IMG/VR virus record: IMGVR_UViG_3300046005_001532
Span: 1-20,138 of that record
Length of the DNA stretch: 20,138 nt
Source: a virus
Reading direction: 5' to 3' (one strand)
Below the pieces are notes generated by a model. That model did not search any database and was not told the DNA's origin. It saw only the letters and a program-made list of their open reading frames with translations. The position numbers and the translations under genes are program-made. Every line of letters starts with the position of its first letter. Position 1 is the first letter of the stretch. Of the stretch, positions 1,745 to 14,156 are shown piece by piece.

Positions 1745-1904
1745 AAATATCAACCTCTAAACTTGCTGAAAAGTGAATGACATTGCCGGCCTCATTCTTG
1801 CAATAGCTGTACATACCATCCACATTCTCTAAAAAATAAACCGTGTTGGATTCATCACCTTGAATAGTAAAAAAGGTGTCTCTGGGTAAGTTATAGAGTT
1901 TCAT
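1737..1904 (-). CDS. Small phage protein, 55 aa
   Basis: Unrecognised 55-aa protein beginning MKLYNLPRDT and ending EVDICD. It is too short to appear in ordinary ORF lists but is well supported by context: its ATG overlaps the TGA of the upstream HNH gene (ATGA), AAAGAGAG lies just upstream as ribosome-binding site, and its stop overlaps the GTG start of the next gene. The sequence alternates hydrophobic and polar residues (FFTIQG, TVYFLENVDG, MYSYCK, NVIHFSA), which suggests a small all-beta fold. No known domain can be assigned. It is likely an accessory protein made in early lytic growth with the rest of the left operon. Confidence 0.7.
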   Translation of the reverse strand: MKLYNLPRDTFFTIQGDESNTVYFLENVDGMYSYCKNEAGNVIHFSASLEVDICD

Positions 1905-2479
1905 GGAACTCTCTTTGCGGCTTGTTCCAGTCTTACCAAGTTAATTAATGCCATTCTGATTTCTGGTGATTGTTTACTATATTTTTCGTGTCGATTTAAC
2001 ACAGCTAATTCTCCTCGTGTCACCATTTGCAAATTCTCTATGCTGCAATCCAACTTGTTGTCACCGATAAATATCACCAGATCACCTTTTGCTATGGGTC
2101 CGTTTACTGCCTGCCAAACTAAGCGATGTTTAGCTTCCCACTTCCTTGGCTCGGCCACCTTAACTTCCAAGTAACCATCTTTAGTTATTCGTTCTGAACC
2201 TACTGGAAGAGTATTAAATGGGTGATTGCCTTTTTTAAAAGTCGTAGAACTTTTACCATTAACGCCTTTTAAGCCGGTGTTCCAAGGCTTATTACCTTGT
2301 GTAAATCCGGTGTTTTTATGCTTAAAGCCACGACTTTTGCAGGCGTTAGTAAGCTGGTGTGTTATCAAATTAAGACCAAATGTCTGGTTAAAGCGGGCGA
2401 CTATCTCAACATTATTAAGCTCATAACGGTTTGCTTTTAACCAGGCTATTTGTTCAGGCTGCCACTTATGCCCTTTCAT
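1901..2479 (-). CDS. HNH endonuclease (HNH_3-type), phage moron
   Basis: 192-aa protein with a C-terminal HNH_3-type nuclease fold: HRLVWQAVNGPI (from about residue 118), then DLVIFIGDNKLD and SIENLQMV (to about 154), i.e. the His, Asp/Asn and Asn positions of the family. The N-terminal part (KWQPEQIAWLKANR, then NNVEIVARFNQTFG) looks like a SANT/HTH-type DNA-binding segment often joined to such nucleases. These are free-standing homing-type or nicking endonucleases common in phages; the actual target is unknown. A longer start (2536) would overlap the upstream gene by 71 bases, so the ATG at 2479 with a 14-base overlap is preferred, although its Shine-Dalgarno is weak. The middle region is rich in Gly, Asn and Lys, probably a linker. 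Confidence 0.82.
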   Translation of the reverse strand: MKGHKWQPEQIAWLKANRYELNNVEIVARFNQTFGLNLITHQLTNACKSRGFKHKNTGFTQGNKPWNTGLKGVNGKSSTTFKKGNHPFNTLPVGSERITKDGYLEVKVAEPRKWEAKHRLVWQAVNGPIAKGDLVIFIGDNKLDCSIENLQMVTRGELAVLNRHEKYSKQSPEIRMALINLVRLEQAAKRVP

Positions 2480-2699
2480 TTTCAAGCATCTTTGGCAAGT
2501 CTTTAACGCTACCCATGTTTTTTTGCACTGTGACAATATCGAGGGCTAGTTTAGAGTTGGAAATAATGTCACGGGCAATAGAACTAACCGCTTTGCTACG
2601 TTCAATTTCAGCGCTTAAGTAGTCATCGCCTACCGTATCATCGGTGAGTCTTACTAATTGATCGAACAACACATCATTCAGCTTGCTTAAGTTATTCAT
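2466..2699 (-). CDS. Small conserved phage protein, 77 aa
   Basis: 77-aa, largely helical protein (MNNLSKLNDVLFDQL ... AEIERSKAVSSIARDIISNSKLALDIV). Its layout matches a widespread phage family of unknown function in which an N-terminal NDVLF-type helix is followed by an EIERAKAV-type helix and a second helix containing ANA/NSKLAL. The start ATG overlaps the TGA of the upstream HTH gene (ATGA), and the end overlaps the HNH gene by 14 bases. It is read as part of the PL operon. No catalytic motif is visible; a small adaptor or regulatory role is only a guess. Confidence 0.8.
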   Translation of the reverse strand: MNNLSKLNDVLFDQLVRLTDDTVGDDYLSAEIERSKAVSSIARDIISNSKLALDIVTVQKNMGSVKDLPKMLENERA

Positions 2700-4355: not shown

Positions 4356-4844
4356 TTAGTAGGCTCTAGGTAATTGAGTTAATGATCTGTTAATATCCCA
4401 TCCGCTCCATAAGCGCCTATTAACAATGTTGTAGGCTATTCCAAATAATTCACACCACTCAGCCAATGGCCTCTCTACTCCATCAAGTATGAATTTTTTT
4501 GTTATTGCTCTGTTTCTTGCCTGCTCTGTTTTTGTTGACCATTTGCAGTTTTCTGGCGTGTAATCTTTTAAACCATCAATCCTATCAATAGTGTGTGTTG
4601 ATGTTGGCTTTAGCCCCATATCATCAATAAATGATTGAGGAGAATTAAGCCATCTATCGCAAACAATTACCCCTTTACCGCCATAGTATTCAAATGTCTT
4701 GTTTTTTGGGTTATAACATCTGTCCTTCATAAGCTGCCAAGATGTATATTCTGGAGTTCCTTTTAATCCTTTTTTTACCTTGTTAGGTATCCCTTTGCGA
4801 CTCCCACCCCTAGGAAGCGCCTTCTTTTCTTCTATCATGCTCAT
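4356..4844 (-). CDS. HNH-like phage protein of the YGGKG..CDRWL family
   Basis: 162-aa protein belonging to a recurrent phage family marked by YTSWQLMKDRCYNPKN, YYGGKGVIVCDRWL, IDRIDGLKDYTPENCKWST and EQARNRA. The second half of this pattern looks like a divergent HNH/beta-beta-alpha metal nuclease module in which the first His is replaced, and members are often annotated as HNH or homing-endonuclease-like. The C-terminal 45 residues (LAEWCELFGIAYNIVNRRLWSGWDINRSL) form a small helical repeat that in this family is thought to bind DNA. It lies between erf and the exonuclease and probably is a mobile insertion. Starts by ATGA overlap with erf. Function is inferred, not shown. Confidence 0.72.
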   Translation of the reverse strand: MSMIEEKKALPRGGSRKGIPNKVKKGLKGTPEYTSWQLMKDRCYNPKNKTFEYYGGKGVIVCDRWLNSPQSFIDDMGLKPTSTHTIDRIDGLKDYTPENCKWSTKTEQARNRAITKKFILDGVERPLAEWCELFGIAYNIVNRRLWSGWDINRSLTQLPRAY

Positions 4845-5513: not shown

Positions 5514-5692
5514 TTAATTAACTCCTCGATCTGGCAATTCTCAGTCAGATACAAAGTGATTTCGTTCACGTCACCTTTTTTATCAACAGCAGTTACACGC
5601 ATAAAGCGAATGAGTGAATCATCTGGCATGAATAGGTTTTCTTGCTTGAATGTCAGGTCTTGTATGTGATGAATTGATACTGAAGTTGACAT
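5510..5692 (-). CDS. Small phage protein, 60 aa
   Basis: 60-aa protein of unknown function. Start by TAATG overlap with the stop of the membrane-protein gene and end by ATGA overlap with the 52-residue gene. The sequence contains LIRFMRVTAVDKKGDVNEITLYLTE, an alternating pattern suggesting a small beta-sheet, followed by a short terminal helix. No known motif seen. Confidence 0.68.
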   Translation of the reverse strand: MSTSVSIHHIQDLTFKQENLFMPDDSLIRFMRVTAVDKKGDVNEITLYLTENCQIEELIK

Positions 5693-5982
5693 TATTCATT
5701 CCCCCAAGCATCTACAAGCGACATGGGCGAGATCGGCATTGCATTGCCATCTTCAGCCTTAGCTTGGGTGGTGGTTAGGAACATTGATAAGAGCAACAAG
5801 ATGCCAGCAATAATAGCGATCAGGAATTTAGCATCGCTGACAGCCTGAGCATCTATGTAAAAGTGTTCTTCGTATTCTTCAACAATCACACGCTCTGGTT
5901 TAAATACTTTCTTAGCTTGTTCTTTGATGAAGTCTTGACGTTGCTTAGATGCAAAGTCTTTTACTGGATAGTGAATAGCCAT
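5692..5982 (-). CDS. Single-pass membrane protein, first gene of the left operon
   Basis: 96-aa protein of unknown function. The N-terminal 50 residues are basic and soluble (MAIHYPVKDF, KEQAKKVFKPERV, EEYEEHF) and are followed by one strong membrane segment at about 53-69 (FLIAIIAGILLLLSMFL) and a short polar tail; Lys before the segment predicts an inside N-terminus. The ATG at 5982 has a good CGGAGAA ribosome-binding site; a longer upstream frame reaching about 6048 lacks one. It is the first gene expressed after the structured PL leader, the position of lambda genes that act on the host early in infection. A superinfection-exclusion role is possible but unproven. Confidence 0.75.
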   Translation of the reverse strand: MAIHYPVKDFASKQRQDFIKEQAKKVFKPERVIVEEYEEHFYIDAQAVSDAKFLIAIIAGILLLLSMFLTTTQAKAEDGNAMPISPMSLVDAWGNE

Positions 5983-6453
5983 GTTTATTTCTCCGATAAT
6001 TATTATTGATTGCCATGCTCTCAATGGCTTCCCAGCGTTACCACACAAGCGAATGTGTTGAACAGGTAAGATGTATTCATAAGACTGCCTACCAAGACAG
6101 CAAGCCTCTCACAACAATCTATCGAGATAGACAGTCTTATAAACCCCAGACACTTAGCCGGTCTGGGTTAGCAATTACGGCAGTTATGTTAATTAGGTGA
6201 TTACTGCACCGGACTTATTACAGAGCCGGTGGACTCTGGCCGTAAATTCTTCTCCCAAAAAGACCCTCACCGAAATGAGGGTTGAATGTGCCGTTTAGGC
6301 GAGGAGTAACCCTTCGAGGTTATAAGGCTTGGCACGAAAGGCTACCCCCGTAGAACTAACATACCAAGTCTTATAAAGACGATTTCCTGCTAAGGTCTAT
6401 CGGAGTATTTCACCGGCCTTGCAATCCTTCTACGTGGATTATCCGTTTCGTTG
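5983..6453 (-). ncRNA. Structured untranslated leader of the PL operon (predicted)
   Basis: About 470 bases without a credible gene between the predicted PL start (near 6453) and the first left-operon gene. It holds a dense series of perfect pairings: TTCTACG 6428-6434 with CGTAGAA 6349-6355 (closing a domain of about 90 nt); CCCTCA/TGAGGG at 6264-6281; CACCGG 6207-6212 with CCGGTG 6226-6231; CCCAGAC 6145-6151 with GTCTGGG 6161-6167; CAGTCTT 6132-6138 with AAGACTG 6081-6087, enclosing TCTATC/GATAGA at 6118-6131. This density is far beyond the surrounding coding DNA. I infer a leader RNA acting in termination/antitermination, comparable in position to lambda nutL or HK022 putL but much larger. 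It resembles no RNA family I recognise. Confidence 0.6.
6256..6282 (-). terminator. Intrinsic terminator inside the PL leader
   Basis: On the leftward strand a seven-base-pair stem (core CCCTCA with TGAGGG, six-base loop TTTCGG) is followed by TCTTTTT, a good rho-independent terminator. The opposite strand lacks a T run, so it is directional. It lies about 190 nt after the predicted PL start and upstream of all left-operon genes, so it would block the operon unless transcription is made terminator-resistant. Confidence 0.7.
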
Positions 6454-6459
6454 GATGTA

Positions 6460-6487
6460 ATGATACAGTAATGTATCAATTAATCAA
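6460..6487 (-). promoter_or_regulatory. Predicted PL promoter
   Basis: On the leftward strand TTGATT (6487-6482) and TATCAT (6465-6460) are separated by 16 bases, placing a start near 6453. Both boxes lie inside the operator palindromes OL1 and OL2, so repressor or Cro bound there would occlude RNA polymerase. It would drive the leader and the recombination/integration genes. Confidence 0.7.
6461..6478. promoter_or_regulatory. Operator OL1
   Basis: Perfect inverted repeat TGATACA-GTAA-TGTATCA overlapping the PL -10 box. It matches OR1 at 8282-8299 in 16 of 18 positions when read on the appropriate strand, identifying it as a binding site of the CI/Cro pair. Confidence 0.8.
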
Positions 6488-6502
6488 TACATTTATGTAT
6501 TA
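6485..6502. promoter_or_regulatory. Operator OL2
   Basis: Inverted repeat with arms AATACAT (6486-6492) and ATGTATT (6495-6501), overlapping the PL -35 box and centred 24 bases from OL1. Same half-site family as OR2 (AATACAT-CA-ATGTATT). Confidence 0.75.
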
Positions 6503-6571: not shown

Positions 6572-6595
6572 AAAAAAACCGCAGTTAAGCGGTTT
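6572..6595 (-). terminator. Terminator of the cI-Panacea operon
   Basis: On the leftward strand AAACCGC, loop TTAACT, GCGGTTT, running into a T tract (seven A on the plus strand, 6572-6578). A strong rho-independent terminator 18 bases after the last immunity-region gene; it separates lysogenic transcription from PL. The AT-rich stretch 6503-6571 between it and PL has no recognisable gene. Confidence 0.88.
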
Positions 6596-7708: not shown

Positions 7709-7858
7709 TCAGGTAAGTGTGCTGCCATAGTCCTCCTTTGTAACCGCGTCTTTTTTTTGTGAATCTTCAATATCCCTTTTTACTGCATCACAAAATGGCT
7801 TATCTGCTGCTTGATTCTGTCGTCTTTTATAAGCAGATAAGGGATCATGCAGGTTCAC
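7709..7858 (-). CDS. Short ORF after cI, or frame-shifted repressor tail (49 aa)
   Basis: A frame open for 49 codons from a GTG overlapping the cI stop (GTGA). It encodes a charged, soluble peptide (NLHDPLSAYKRRQNQ, VKRDIEDSQKKDAVTKEDYG). The start follows a run of ten G that could serve as ribosome-binding site, so translational coupling is plausible. Alternatively, one extra G in the run would fuse this frame to cI and give a 172-aa repressor; the frame could therefore be a C-terminal segment separated by a slippage event or a sequencing error. I recognise no domain. A second, tiny frame starts at an AGGAGG near 7735 but codes only ten residues and is not called. Confidence 0.45.
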   Translation of the reverse strand: MNLHDPLSAYKRRQNQAADKPFCDAVKRDIEDSQKKDAVTKEDYGSTLT

Positions 7859-8226
7859 CCCCCCCCCACATTTTCCGGTCGAGCTGTCAAGGGTTTATTT
7901 ACAGGTTTTTGAGATAATTCTGGTTGAGCTTGGACAAGTGTATTAACCATTTGCTCAATTAGTTTTCTATTTTCTTCATTCAGCTTTTCAATATTTTCAT
8001 AAAGCGGAACTGGAGCATCAATTTCTTCAAACCCTCTTAAAGCTGCTTCTGTTATCCCAAGACCTTTTGCAAGTTTTCTTACTGTATCAGCTCGTGGATC
8101 ACCAATTTTACCTTTTAAAAATCTTTGTATAGTTGGTTGTGGAACTCCAGATTTACTAGATAAATCATAGGCGTTCCAGCTTTTCAGCATCATTTCTTTT
8201 TCAAGATTAGTTCTTAATGTAGTCAT
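7855..8226 (-). CDS. cI: CI-like phage repressor (HTH only, no peptidase domain)
   Basis: 123-aa XRE-family protein. Residues about 14-62 form the lambda-repressor-like helix-turn-helix (NAYDLSSKSGVPQPTIQRFLKG, then DTVRKLAKGLGITEAALRG), followed by a helix rich in Glu/Asn (ENIEKLNEENRKLIEQMVNTLVQ), probably for dimerisation, and a short polar tail. There is no S24/LexA-type autoprotease domain, so RecA-dependent cleavage is not expected. The chosen ATG (8226) lies exactly where transcription from PRM should begin; an upstream frame to 8319 runs through the operators and is rejected. It is divergent from cro across three operators, the standard position of CI. The C terminus ends in Gly codons encoded by a G10 run. 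Confidence 0.85.
   Translation of the reverse strand: MTTLRTNLEKEMMLKSWNAYDLSSKSGVPQPTIQRFLKGKIGDPRADTVRKLAKGLGITEAALRGFEEIDAPVPLYENIEKLNEENRKLIEQMVNTLVQAQPELSQKPVNKPLTARPENVGGG
7858..7867. repeat. Homopolymer run of ten C (G10 in the cI sense)
   Basis: Ten consecutive C on the plus strand form the last codons of cI. Runs of this length are prone to slippage. A change of +1 would join cI to the following 49-codon frame. Confidence 0.95.
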
Positions 8227-8232
8227 TACACA

Positions 8233-8261
8233 AGTATGCATATTTGTATCATCTAAATCAA
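8233..8261 (-). promoter_or_regulatory. Predicted PRM promoter of cI
   Basis: On the leftward strand TTGATT (8261-8256) and CATACT (8238-8233) have an ideal 17-base spacer. Six bases after the -10 comes the A of the cI ATG (8226), so the transcript should be leaderless, as for lambda cI from PRM. The -35 touches OR2 and the -10 and spacer are covered by OR3. Confidence 0.72.
8234..8251. promoter_or_regulatory. Operator OR3 (imperfect)
   Basis: Contains the exact half-site TGTATCA (8245-8251) with a degenerate partner. It overlaps the PRM -10 and spacer and is centred 26 bases from OR2, so a bound protein would shut off cI. Weaker match than OR1 and OR2. Confidence 0.55.
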
Positions 8262-8277
8262 ATACATCAATGTATTG
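8260..8277. promoter_or_regulatory. Operator OR2
   Basis: Perfect inverted repeat AATACAT-CA-ATGTATT (8261-8276) located between, and touching, the -35 boxes of PRM and PR; nearly the same as OL2. Repressor here could both block PR and contact polymerase at PRM. Confidence 0.78.
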
Positions 8278-8303
8278 ACGTTGATACATTAGTGTATTAT
8301 TAT
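8275..8303 (+). promoter_or_regulatory. Predicted PR promoter of cro and the right operon
   Basis: TTGACG (8275-8280), 17-base spacer, TATTAT (8298-8303): a near-consensus sigma-70 promoter. Expected start is about 8310, two bases before the cro ATG. OR1 fills the spacer and OR2 overlaps the -35. Confidence 0.85.
8282..8299. promoter_or_regulatory. Operator OR1
   Basis: TGATACA-TTAG-TGTATTA, the closest relative of OL1 (TGATACA-TTAC-TGTATCA on the leftward strand). Centred 22 bases from OR2 and lying in the PR spacer and -10. Confidence 0.8.
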
Positions 8304-8311
8304 TGCATCCC

Positions 8312-8500
8312 ATGAACATACAAAAAATCCTTTCAAGTATTAAAGAAACAGGTATCAGCGATTCAAAGATTGCTGCTCTAGTTGGAACTTCTCAGCCTCA
8401 AATATTCAGAATACGAAAAGGACAAAGTCCAAAGTATGAATTAGGAGAAAAGATAGGAAGTCTTGCTAAAGAAATCTGTCCCGACATTTTTGGAAAATAA
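8312..8500 (+). CDS. cro: Cro-like repressor
   Basis: 62-aa HTH protein, divergent from cI across the operators. Residues about 14-40 (GISDSKIAALVGTSQPQIFRIRKG) form the helix-turn-helix; the size is typical for Cro (60-70 aa). It is expected to bind the same operators and to repress PRM and later PL/PR in lytic growth. The ATG at 8312 is used rather than an in-frame TTG at 8303, which lies in the PR -10. No Shine-Dalgarno is present and the predicted transcript start is only two bases upstream, so translation would be leaderless or almost so. It is followed directly (TAA ATG) by a ribbon-helix-helix gene. Confidence 0.85.
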   Translation: MNIQKILSSIKETGISDSKIAALVGTSQPQIFRIRKGQSPKYELGEKIGSLAKEICPDIFGK

Positions 8501-8749: not shown

Positions 8750-8947
8750 ATGAGCGAACAGAAAAGAAACATTGCAGGGGATAAGAGAGCAGCAAGTTTA
8801 TCTCTGCGTCCTCGTAAAGCTCAAACCAATACGTTTGGTAGAGGATTTGAGTTATCGCCTAAAGCAACAGAGATGGACATTATTGAAAACCAGCGCAGAC
8901 ATGTTTGTTTTCAATCAAAGTTTGGACGATTTGTAAGAAATAAGTAG
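8750..8947 (+). CDS. Small basic protein, possible N-like RNA binder (65 aa)
   Basis: 65-aa, strongly basic protein. The N-terminal 30 residues carry many Arg/Lys (EQKRN, GDKRAAS, LRPRKAQ), followed by a conserved-looking FGRGFELS segment and a basic C-terminus (NQRRH, KFGRFVRNK). Start ATG at 8750 with GCGGAAA upstream is preferred to an in-frame TTG at 8717. It is the last gene before the structured right leader. Small Arg-rich proteins encoded next to nut-type RNA are often antiterminators such as lambda N, and that is my working hypothesis; the sequence has no clear match to N and coding status is itself moderately certain. Confidence 0.55.
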   Translation: MSEQKRNIAGDKRAASLSLRPRKAQTNTFGRGFELSPKATEMDIIENQRRHVCFQSKFGRFVRNK

Positions 8948-9033
8948 TGCTTCAACTAAGACTTGGACGCTAAAAAACAATCAGAAGATTCAGGCTAAAA
9001 ACGGGTTCGGTCTGGTTGTGAGGTGAGGGAAGA

Positions 9034-9132
9034 ATGCACAAGCCCTTAACGGTGGGAATCATCCCAATGATAGCTGTAAATCGTATCGAAGAACGGAACC
9101 TCGGCCTAATAGCTAAGGGTGATCCGGTTTAG
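9034..9132 (+). CDS. Possible 32-residue leader peptide
   Basis: An ATG preceded by a strong GTGAGGGA Shine-Dalgarno opens a 32-codon frame (MHKPLTVGIIPMIAVNRIEE ... GDPV). It lies inside the structured leader. It may be a translated leader peptide that controls folding of the RNA, or chance. Low confidence because the bases also form hairpins. Confidence 0.25.
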   Translation: MHKPLTVGIIPMIAVNRIEERNLGLIAKGDPV

Positions 9133-9395
9133 ATAGTCAGCTAATCAGAATGGACGACCAGAGCCGAGTGAGGCATCTGCCATAGGTGTTAAGTCTGGTC
9201 AGCGGCAACAGAATATGTCTAGAGGATTGCCGTCCTGAGTGCTGTGACACTCTAAGTAGATTCGTTCTATCCGATCATTTGGGTAGGGGAATCTTTACCC
9301 CGAATACTGACAAACACTAAGGCAAGTTAATTCAGCCCTAACCAAGAGAGTGTAAGTGTTTTATATCAAATTTAAACTGATTTTAATCAACATGG

Positions 9396-9413
9396 TTAGG
9401 GTAATTACCCTAA
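9396..9413. promoter_or_regulatory. Perfect 18-base palindrome abutting the ribosome-binding site
   Basis: TTAGGGTAATTACCCTAA, its right arm overlapping the AAAGGA Shine-Dalgarno (9412-9417) of the gene at 9427. As RNA it is a hairpin that could hide the site; as DNA it could be an operator. The upstream flank (9360-9390) is very AT-rich. Confidence 0.65.
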
Positions 9414-9426
9414 AGGAAACCGGCTA

Positions 9427-13540: not shown

Positions 13541-13819
13541 TTAAGACACAATCAATTTACAGCCCAATGCTTCAACAATTTTGGTGATGGTATCAAAGCG
13601 TGGATTGCCATCATCAGAAAGCGATTTGTAAAGACTGGCTCTAGTTACTCCAGCTTGCTTTGCAACCTCTGTCATTCCCTTAGCTCTGGCAGCGGTAGAT
13701 AAAGCATGAATAAAGTCAGACATATCACCAGAGTTAGCAGATTCTTTGAGAAACAATTTAATGTCTTGATCCGTTTTAAGGTAATCAGCAACATCAAAAG
13801 GAGTAATGATTTCTTTCAT
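13541..13819 (-). CDS. higA: HigA-type antitoxin (HI1420 family)
   Basis: 92-aa antitoxin of the probable addiction-module antidote family typified by HI1420. N-terminal EIITPFDVADYLKTDQDIKLFL is characteristic; residues about 48-92 (KGMTEVAKQAGVTRASLYKSLSDDGNPRFDTITKIVEALGCKL) are the XRE-type HTH that autoregulates the operon. It follows the toxin gene after three bases, the toxin-first order usual for this family, and both are read against the surrounding early operon. It should bind and neutralise the downstream-partnered RelE-like toxin. Confidence 0.92.
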   Translation of the reverse strand: MKEIITPFDVADYLKTDQDIKLFLKESANSGDMSDFIHALSTAARAKGMTEVAKQAGVTRASLYKSLSDDGNPRFDTITKIVEALGCKLIVS

Positions 13820-13822
13820 AAT

Positions 13823-14122
13823 TTAAGTCTCAAGGTTATTCAAAATAGTTCTAGCCTTTTCAATATCACGGCTTTGGCTAGATTTATTGCCACCTGCCAA
13901 CAGCAATACAACTTCATTGCCTTTGATTGTGTAATAGATACGAATACCAGCACCAAAAACAAATTTCAATTCAAACAAATGACAAGACAGTGGTTTGAAA
14001 TCGCCAAAATTACCATTGCTGACGCGATCCAGTCGAGTAAGAACCTTGCTAATAGTTACAGGGTCTTTAAGGCTGTTCATCCAAGTGCTAAATGTTTGAG
14101 TGCTTTGCAGTTCATATTTCAT
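13823..14122 (-). CDS. higB: RelE/HigB-type toxin (HI1419 family)
   Basis: 99-aa toxin of the RelE/ParE superfamily, HI1419-type. Features: YELQSTQTFSTWMNSLKDP at the start, the family core GNFGDFKPLSCHLFELKFVFGAGIRIYYTIKGNEVVLLLAGGNKSSQSRDIEKA, with R, Y and K residues in the places used by such mRNA interferases. The ATG at 14122 gives the usual family length; a frame starting at 14149 runs into the promoter and is rejected. The transcript predicted from its promoter begins on this ATG, i.e. leaderless. Whether it acts on mRNA cannot be told from the sequence. Confidence 0.92.
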   Translation of the reverse strand: MKYELQSTQTFSTWMNSLKDPVTISKVLTRLDRVSNGNFGDFKPLSCHLFELKFVFGAGIRIYYTIKGNEVVLLLAGGNKSSQSRDIEKARTILNNLET

Positions 14123-14128
14123 AGATAT

Positions 14129-14156
14129 ATTGTATCCTGTAAGAAACAAATGTCAA
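14129..14156 (-). promoter_or_regulatory. Promoter of the higBA pair
   Basis: On the leftward strand a perfect TTGACA (14156-14151), a 16-base spacer and TACAAT (14134-14129). The expected start falls on or beside the toxin ATG at 14122, leaving no leader for a ribosome-binding site. Confidence 0.78.

Follow-up and report, generated by a model that had tools for sequence, protein, structure and literature searches.

The left operon of this phage raises the question of what is carried by the roughly 470 nucleotides (positions 5983-6453) that separate its first gene from a PL-type promoter. Positions refer throughout to the window, that is, the whole stretch of 20,138 nucleotides that was analysed, an IMG/VR virus contig with a lambdoid layout. 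Its leftward genes encoded an integrase, HNH proteins, an SSB, an exonuclease and Erf; a repressor gene came next, followed rightward by genes for a Cro-type protein, a helicase, a primase, NinB and a terminase. Two free-standing HNH endonuclease genes lay within the left operon (4356-4844 and 1901-2536, minus strand), and HNH-like genes of relatives occupied other positions within it. A Gp49/RelE-like toxin gene and an HI1420-type antidote gene (13541-14149, minus strand) were oriented opposite to the surrounding right operon.

Promoter and operators of the left operon

The interval was bordered by the following features:

5692-5982, minus strand: first gene of the left operon (96 aa, without family match; GGAG at 5991-5994)
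6460-6487, minus strand: very probable PL promoter (-35 TTGATT at 6487-6482, 16 nt, -10 TATCAT at 6465-6460; +1 at about 6453)
6461-6478, minus strand: operator palindrome TGATACATTACTGTATCA, overlapping PL (second copy at PR, 8282-8299)
6486-6501, no strand assigned: second operator palindrome AATACATTTATGTATT, beside PL (second copy at PR, 8261-8276)

As a bare pattern, TTGATT-16-TATCAT was unremarkable, shuffled sequences yielding as many; a promoter-like sequence was also present at the matching position in relatives. The palindromes were more informative. TGATACATTACTGTATCA and AATACATTTATGTATT each matched exactly one further site of the window, in both cases at the cro-side promoter PR, and nothing in shuffles, while the PL palindromes of L006, L007, L024 and L030 had partners near their own right promoters. 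Because both palindromes recur solely at PR and the partners in relatives also lie near the right promoter, the promoter upstream of the leader is very probably an operator-controlled PL; the start predicted by an earlier, sequence-only reading of this DNA thus belongs to a promoter that is real in its context. Most relatives displayed different palindromes at this place and are therefore phages of different immunities. Repressors varied among them as well as operators.

Other observations concerned the same control region. Just upstream of PL, an intrinsic terminator (6576-6595, minus strand), found at the same place in relatives, would end a leftward repressor-side transcript. The predicted PR start (8303-8315, plus strand) lay a few bases from the ATG of the Cro-type gene (8312), whose mRNA may be leaderless. 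Within the repressor gene, a run of ten C (7858-7867) marked a frameshift between two minus-strand ORFs (7855-8319 and 7709-7858) that form one ORF in L007, L022 and L024; slippage, phase variation or a sequencing error may account for it.

Relatives of the leader

Relatives of the leader were encountered in about a dozen IMG/VR contigs. Six contigs (group A, L002-L007), several of which recurred under other locus numbers, were reached via the neighbouring 96-aa protein, and four more distant ones (sister group B, L021-L024) via an Erf alignment; DNA patterns led to L029, L030, L037/L042 and L126. Distinct leaders were few, and the evidence gathered below is entirely comparative.

No relative was detected in named phage records, plasmids or E. 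coli genomes, nor in 369 genomes of one bacterial class searched with the Erf protein. Nothing resembling the leader was present in three named phages that carry Erf (L013-L015), and all 41 hits of a 17-base pattern in GTDB species genomes were unrelated on inspection. The RNA had been described beforehand as matching no recognised family; the Rfam search suggested as a check agreed, since no family (riboswitches, EAR, GOLLD, ROOL and others) reached its gathering threshold and sub-threshold matches up to E = 10 were chance-like. A literature search returned a paper on the structure of put and no description of this leader element.

A non-coding RNA conserved from its predicted first nucleotide

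The object of this analysis was delimited by folding and by alignments with relatives:

5983-6453, minus strand: entire structured leader RNA (~470 nt)

As initially claimed, these ~470 bases were devoid of a gene: stops closed all three sense frames and no sense-strand ORF spanned the leader. A protein-coding explanation was ruled out by these closed frames and by the indels among homologues, mostly of 1-2 nt. Compared with shuffles, the leftward strand displayed folding z-scores of -3.61 in the window, -5.70 in L007 and -4.94 in L024, the opposite strand of the window scoring -2.52. Covariation had been proposed as a check, and compensatory changes were found in four structures, namely the pseudoknot, hairpin 2, the long 3' hairpin and the small 3' hairpin. 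Together with the better-than-shuffled folding of three leaders, they uphold the description of a large structured RNA at the head of the PL transcript.

The pseudoknot and the 3' hairpin included U-G pairs, which would be A-C if read on the other strand. These pairs and the compensatory changes support the leftward RNA as the functional strand. A DNA-only element (origin, att or packaging site) is unlikely, given that compensatory changes and U-G pairs in a pseudoknot indicate RNA.

Conservation was sharply bounded. Mean identity over the 55 pairs formed by 11 leaders was 50% (minimum 30%) in the 40 nt preceding +1 and 98% (minimum 92.5%) in the first 40 nt of the RNA; when members of groups A and B were compared with the window, identity at fourfold-degenerate sites in three genes of the left operon was 42-79%. 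The conservation boundary coincided with the predicted transcription start, as would be expected for an RNA needed whatever the immunity type. Mosaic exchange can add to this pattern; alone it would not put the boundary at +1.

Architecture of the leader

From +1 towards the first gene, the leader was composed of the following elements:

6388-6453, minus strand: nearly invariant 5' element (~66 nt) with hairpins 1 and 2; covariance model R1 found one per phage
6423-6440, minus strand: predicted hairpin 1, AATCC-ACGTAGAA-GGATT (stem invariant, covariation impossible)
6389-6422, minus strand: hairpin 2, GCAAGG...CCTTaGC (upper stem 6401-6415; one compensatory change)
6374-6381, minus strand: linker CGTCTTTA (group B: boxA-like CGCTCTTTG at the matching place)
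6320-6376, minus strand: hairpin 3 (arms 6364-6376 and 6320-6332; an unrelated hairpin instead in group B)
6349-6355, minus strand: hairpin 3 loop, complementary to the hairpin 1 loop (6428-6434); kissing loops, group A only
6257-6282, minus strand: intrinsic terminator with U-tract (hairpin 6263-6282; terminator of unrelated sequence in group B)
6207-6238, minus strand: H-type pseudoknot (11 pairs kept, five with changes on both sides)
6145-6167, minus strand: hairpin CCCAGAC-CGGCTAAGT-GTCTGGG (group A only)
6076-6143, minus strand: long 3' hairpin, common to groups A and B
6043-6058, minus strand: small hairpin ACACA...TGTGT preceding the first gene (compensatory changes at two pairs)

This organisation was modular. 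Shared beyond group A were only the 5' element, the 3' part and the presence of a terminator, and the middle was exchanged between phages: behind the terminator, group A carried the pseudoknot, group B passed straight to the 3' hairpin, and L042/L126 displayed another module of ~290 nt.

The 5' element was composed of two adjacent predicted stem-loops in which all alignment cells were paired (98 out of 98 for hairpin 2, with one double change). For hairpin 1, as for the lower stem of hairpin 2, invariance leaves the pairing predicted rather than confirmed; the element alone was no more stable than its shuffles (z = 0.24). Most of it was gone from L029 (10328-10402, plus strand), by an apparent deletion between CCGTAG repeats. 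This contig still had the terminator, the 3' hairpin and the Erf operon, plus an extra 93-aa gene; it may come from a defective phage, result from faulty assembly or be an exception that occurs naturally.

A long-range helix between 6428-6434 and 6349-6355 had been put forward earlier. Perfect over 7 bp in the window, it connects the loops of hairpins 1 and 3. A complement to this 7-mer anywhere in the leader arose in 2.7% of shuffles and is not very rare; in relatives the complement grew to 10 nt (0.03%), with CCCCGTAGAA there versus CCACGTAGAA in the window. The helix is real as a complementarity of two hairpin loops (putative kissing loops), but its conservation was confined to the close group A. 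Group B had no partner loop, and its hairpin-1 bases were complementary to the 3' arm of the terminator. Both the kissing loops of group A and this pairing of group B could be meaningful. Two further contacts, one between CTCCGATA (6398-6405) and the Shine-Dalgarno region (5991-5998), reported by folding programs, and one of CTTAGC with GCTAAG, were discarded, being chance-expected at this length and absent in group B.

The rho-independent terminator announced about 190 nt past the predicted PL start was recovered at about +172 to +197 (6263-6282 plus U-tract). In group A it reads ACCCTCATTTCGGTGAGGGT-CTTTTT (eight pairs, -10.9 kcal/mol) and in group B GCTCCGTAGCGATACGGGGC-TTTTTT (eight pairs, -11.8 kcal/mol), at a matching place with unrelated sequences. 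No promoter clearly above chance level was found between the terminator and the first gene; the best candidate, near 6000, was weak and its -35 was not conserved in L003. The left operon showed no other convincing terminators, so the sequence does not demand a "processive" action.

Beyond the terminator, the pseudoknot was paired in 33 out of 33 cells, slid controls reaching 36-48% without double changes; it existed in essentially two sequence versions, so this counts as one well-marked comparison. MFE folds missed it, since the program cannot draw pseudoknots. The long 3' hairpin was 97.8% paired, with one double change and one pair lost on both sides, and the small 3' hairpin was paired in all 25 cells, with double changes at two pairs.

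A non-coding stretch in the right operon

A second gene-free stretch of ~480 nt (8948-9426, plus strand) followed three small genes of the right operon. L022/L024 shared 406 nt of this stretch at 86% identity, despite stops in every frame. The corresponding place was occupied by largely different non-coding sequences of 370-430 nt in L003 and L006/L007. Folding z-scores were -0.70 in the window and -2.26 for the L007 counterpart. This stretch was not similar to the left leader, and the right-hand regions had no Rfam match; the left and right non-coding regions were rejected as a pair of sites, as they shared no significant sequence. Directly before the stretch, the right operon of each inspected member encoded a basic protein of 64 aa (8753-8947, plus strand; QKRNIAGDKRAASL...RGFEL). 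The protein had no Pfam or PHROG match and is a possible candidate for an RNA-binding or antitermination protein.

Comparison with known leader RNAs

To our knowledge, the put group is the main phage RNA that gives terminator-resistant RNA polymerase without a dedicated protein; such factor-independent antitermination goes through the zinc-binding domain of the beta' subunit. HK022 putL is ~70 nt long, is composed of two stem-loops just downstream of PL and needs no dedicated protein (PMC9378689). The 5' element resembled it in beginning at or just after the +1 of PL, where conservation starts, in having about 70 nt and two adjacent predicted stem-loops, and in lying in a repressor-controlled early operon with a terminator behind it. 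In contrast to these likenesses, there was no sequence similarity (best E = 0.54, whereas putL against putR gave 1.8e-6 as a positive control in the same test), and model R1, whose E-values are rough, found nothing in the HK022 locus (L047). HK022 possesses both putL and putR, but in the right operon of this phage R1 detected nothing that would duplicate the 5' element. Moreover, the element belongs to a ~470-nt leader with a pseudoknot and more hairpins, and its action on RNA polymerase is putative. It was not assigned to put because its sequence is unlike and the right-hand copy is missing.

EAR and other leader RNAs curated in Rfam combine a structured 5' leader with a pseudoknot in a terminator context. 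The present leader shared these traits but reached none of the gathering thresholds. The immunity leaders of P4-type phages rely on RNA structure and premature termination early in a transcript, and this leader is likewise early, structured and provided with a terminator; unlike them, it belongs to a phage family with repressor genes and paired operators, and no seq/CI-RNA-like repeats were noticed on superficial inspection.

Proposed function and alternative explanations

With moderate confidence, we propose that this leader RNA, with which the PL transcript begins, acts in cis and would control transcription elongation past its own terminator. An antitermination or attenuation role fits its anatomy. 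The operator-controlled transcript would present the ~66-nt two-hairpin element first, then a hairpin, the terminator, the pseudoknot, two conserved hairpins and the first gene. On emerging from RNA polymerase, the 5' element may fold and render the enzyme, unaided or assisted by factors of host or phage, insensitive to the terminator, which would allow transcription of the recombination and integrase genes; when the element is unformed or lacks a partner, the transcript would stop at ~190 nt. The part behind the terminator probably protects the read-through RNA or times its translation. Since the operon genes lie beyond the terminator and no clear second promoter was found in between, something must let the polymerase pass, and the 5' element appears to be the strongest conserved candidate.

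Conservation from +1, compensatory changes, a terminator in both groups, the lack of a clear internal promoter and the position, similar to that of HK022 putL, all support control of elongation. Points against it are the missing right-operon copy, the missing further terminators in the left operon and the unremarkable stability of the 5' element (z = 0.24). L029, with this element mostly deleted and its operon intact, argues against a strict need for it, unless the phage is defective or misassembled.

A sub-form of this explanation differs in its partner. Lambda nut sites, which work with the N protein, are RNA sites encoded in the leader of the early left operon, and a nut-like, factor-dependent antitermination would use the linker between hairpins 2 and 3 as boxA and the hairpins as boxB, a phage protein and host Nus factors modifying the polymerase. 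The location in an early left leader, CGCTCTTTG at the homologous place in group B and the small basic protein (8753-8947) present in every member inspected, as a candidate partner, would suit it. However, the CGTCTTTA of the window is one base short of boxA, the strict pattern is absent from its leader, no matching site was found in the right operon, the 64-aa protein is without family match, and no recognisable N or N-like family was found among the proteins scanned. We consider this version unlikely. The leader was not assigned to nut, because the boxA-like linker occurs in group B and not strictly in the window; most likely it is an analogue of put and nut, assigned to neither.

Rather unlikely, in our opinion, is a local attenuator resembling a riboswitch, in which alternative pairings among AACCTC, GAAGGGTT, AACCCTC and GAGGGT (6321-6263) would make or break this terminator on a signal, without a lasting change of the polymerase. 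Four alternating complementary segments indeed lie just before or in the terminator, including a hairpin AACCTCGAAGGGTT at 6308-6321; no other strong terminator follows downstream, and the complementarity of hairpin 1 to the terminator's 3' arm in group B would agree with such switching. Yet the alternating segments are missing in group B, no Rfam ligand family matched, and conservation peaks at +1, ~110 nt upstream of the terminator. There is no conserved leader peptide either: attenuation by a peptide was rejected, as MLVLRG in hairpin 3 was conserved solely in group A.

A trans-acting small RNA, with the terminated product of ~165-197 nt as the functional molecule and read-through as incidental, is improbable. 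Small RNAs are usually built in this way, compact and structured, with a promoter and a terminator of their own, but the conserved structure extends past the terminator, the middle of the short RNA differs between groups A and B, and the same-direction operon genes need read-through unless a second promoter exists. Finally, a 5' UTR through which the mRNA would be stabilised or processed, or the first gene translated, without a role in termination, is very improbable: the conserved long 3' hairpin and the small hairpin near the first gene would suit it, but it leaves unexplained why both groups retain an intrinsic terminator, though of unrelated sequence, and why an invariant element starts at +1.

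Significance for temperate phages

Control of elongation could extend to a stronger statement, which we put forward only tentatively and hold to be doubtful: the leader may belong to a novel class of antiterminator RNA in phages, one without relation to put and nut, in which a two-hairpin element at +1 modifies RNA polymerase without a phage protein, within a modular leader of ~470 nt with exchangeable terminator, pseudoknot and hairpin modules. If true, a second, unrelated RNA at a put-like position, with its own terminator as a built-in read-out, would help to define the RNA features to which the polymerase responds. A ready comparison set is provided by the natural variants, namely groups A and B, the swapped 3' modules and the L029 deletion. 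Even if the leader acted by ordinary attenuation, it would represent an uncatalogued family of structured RNAs of temperate phages, with good covariation in its pseudoknot.
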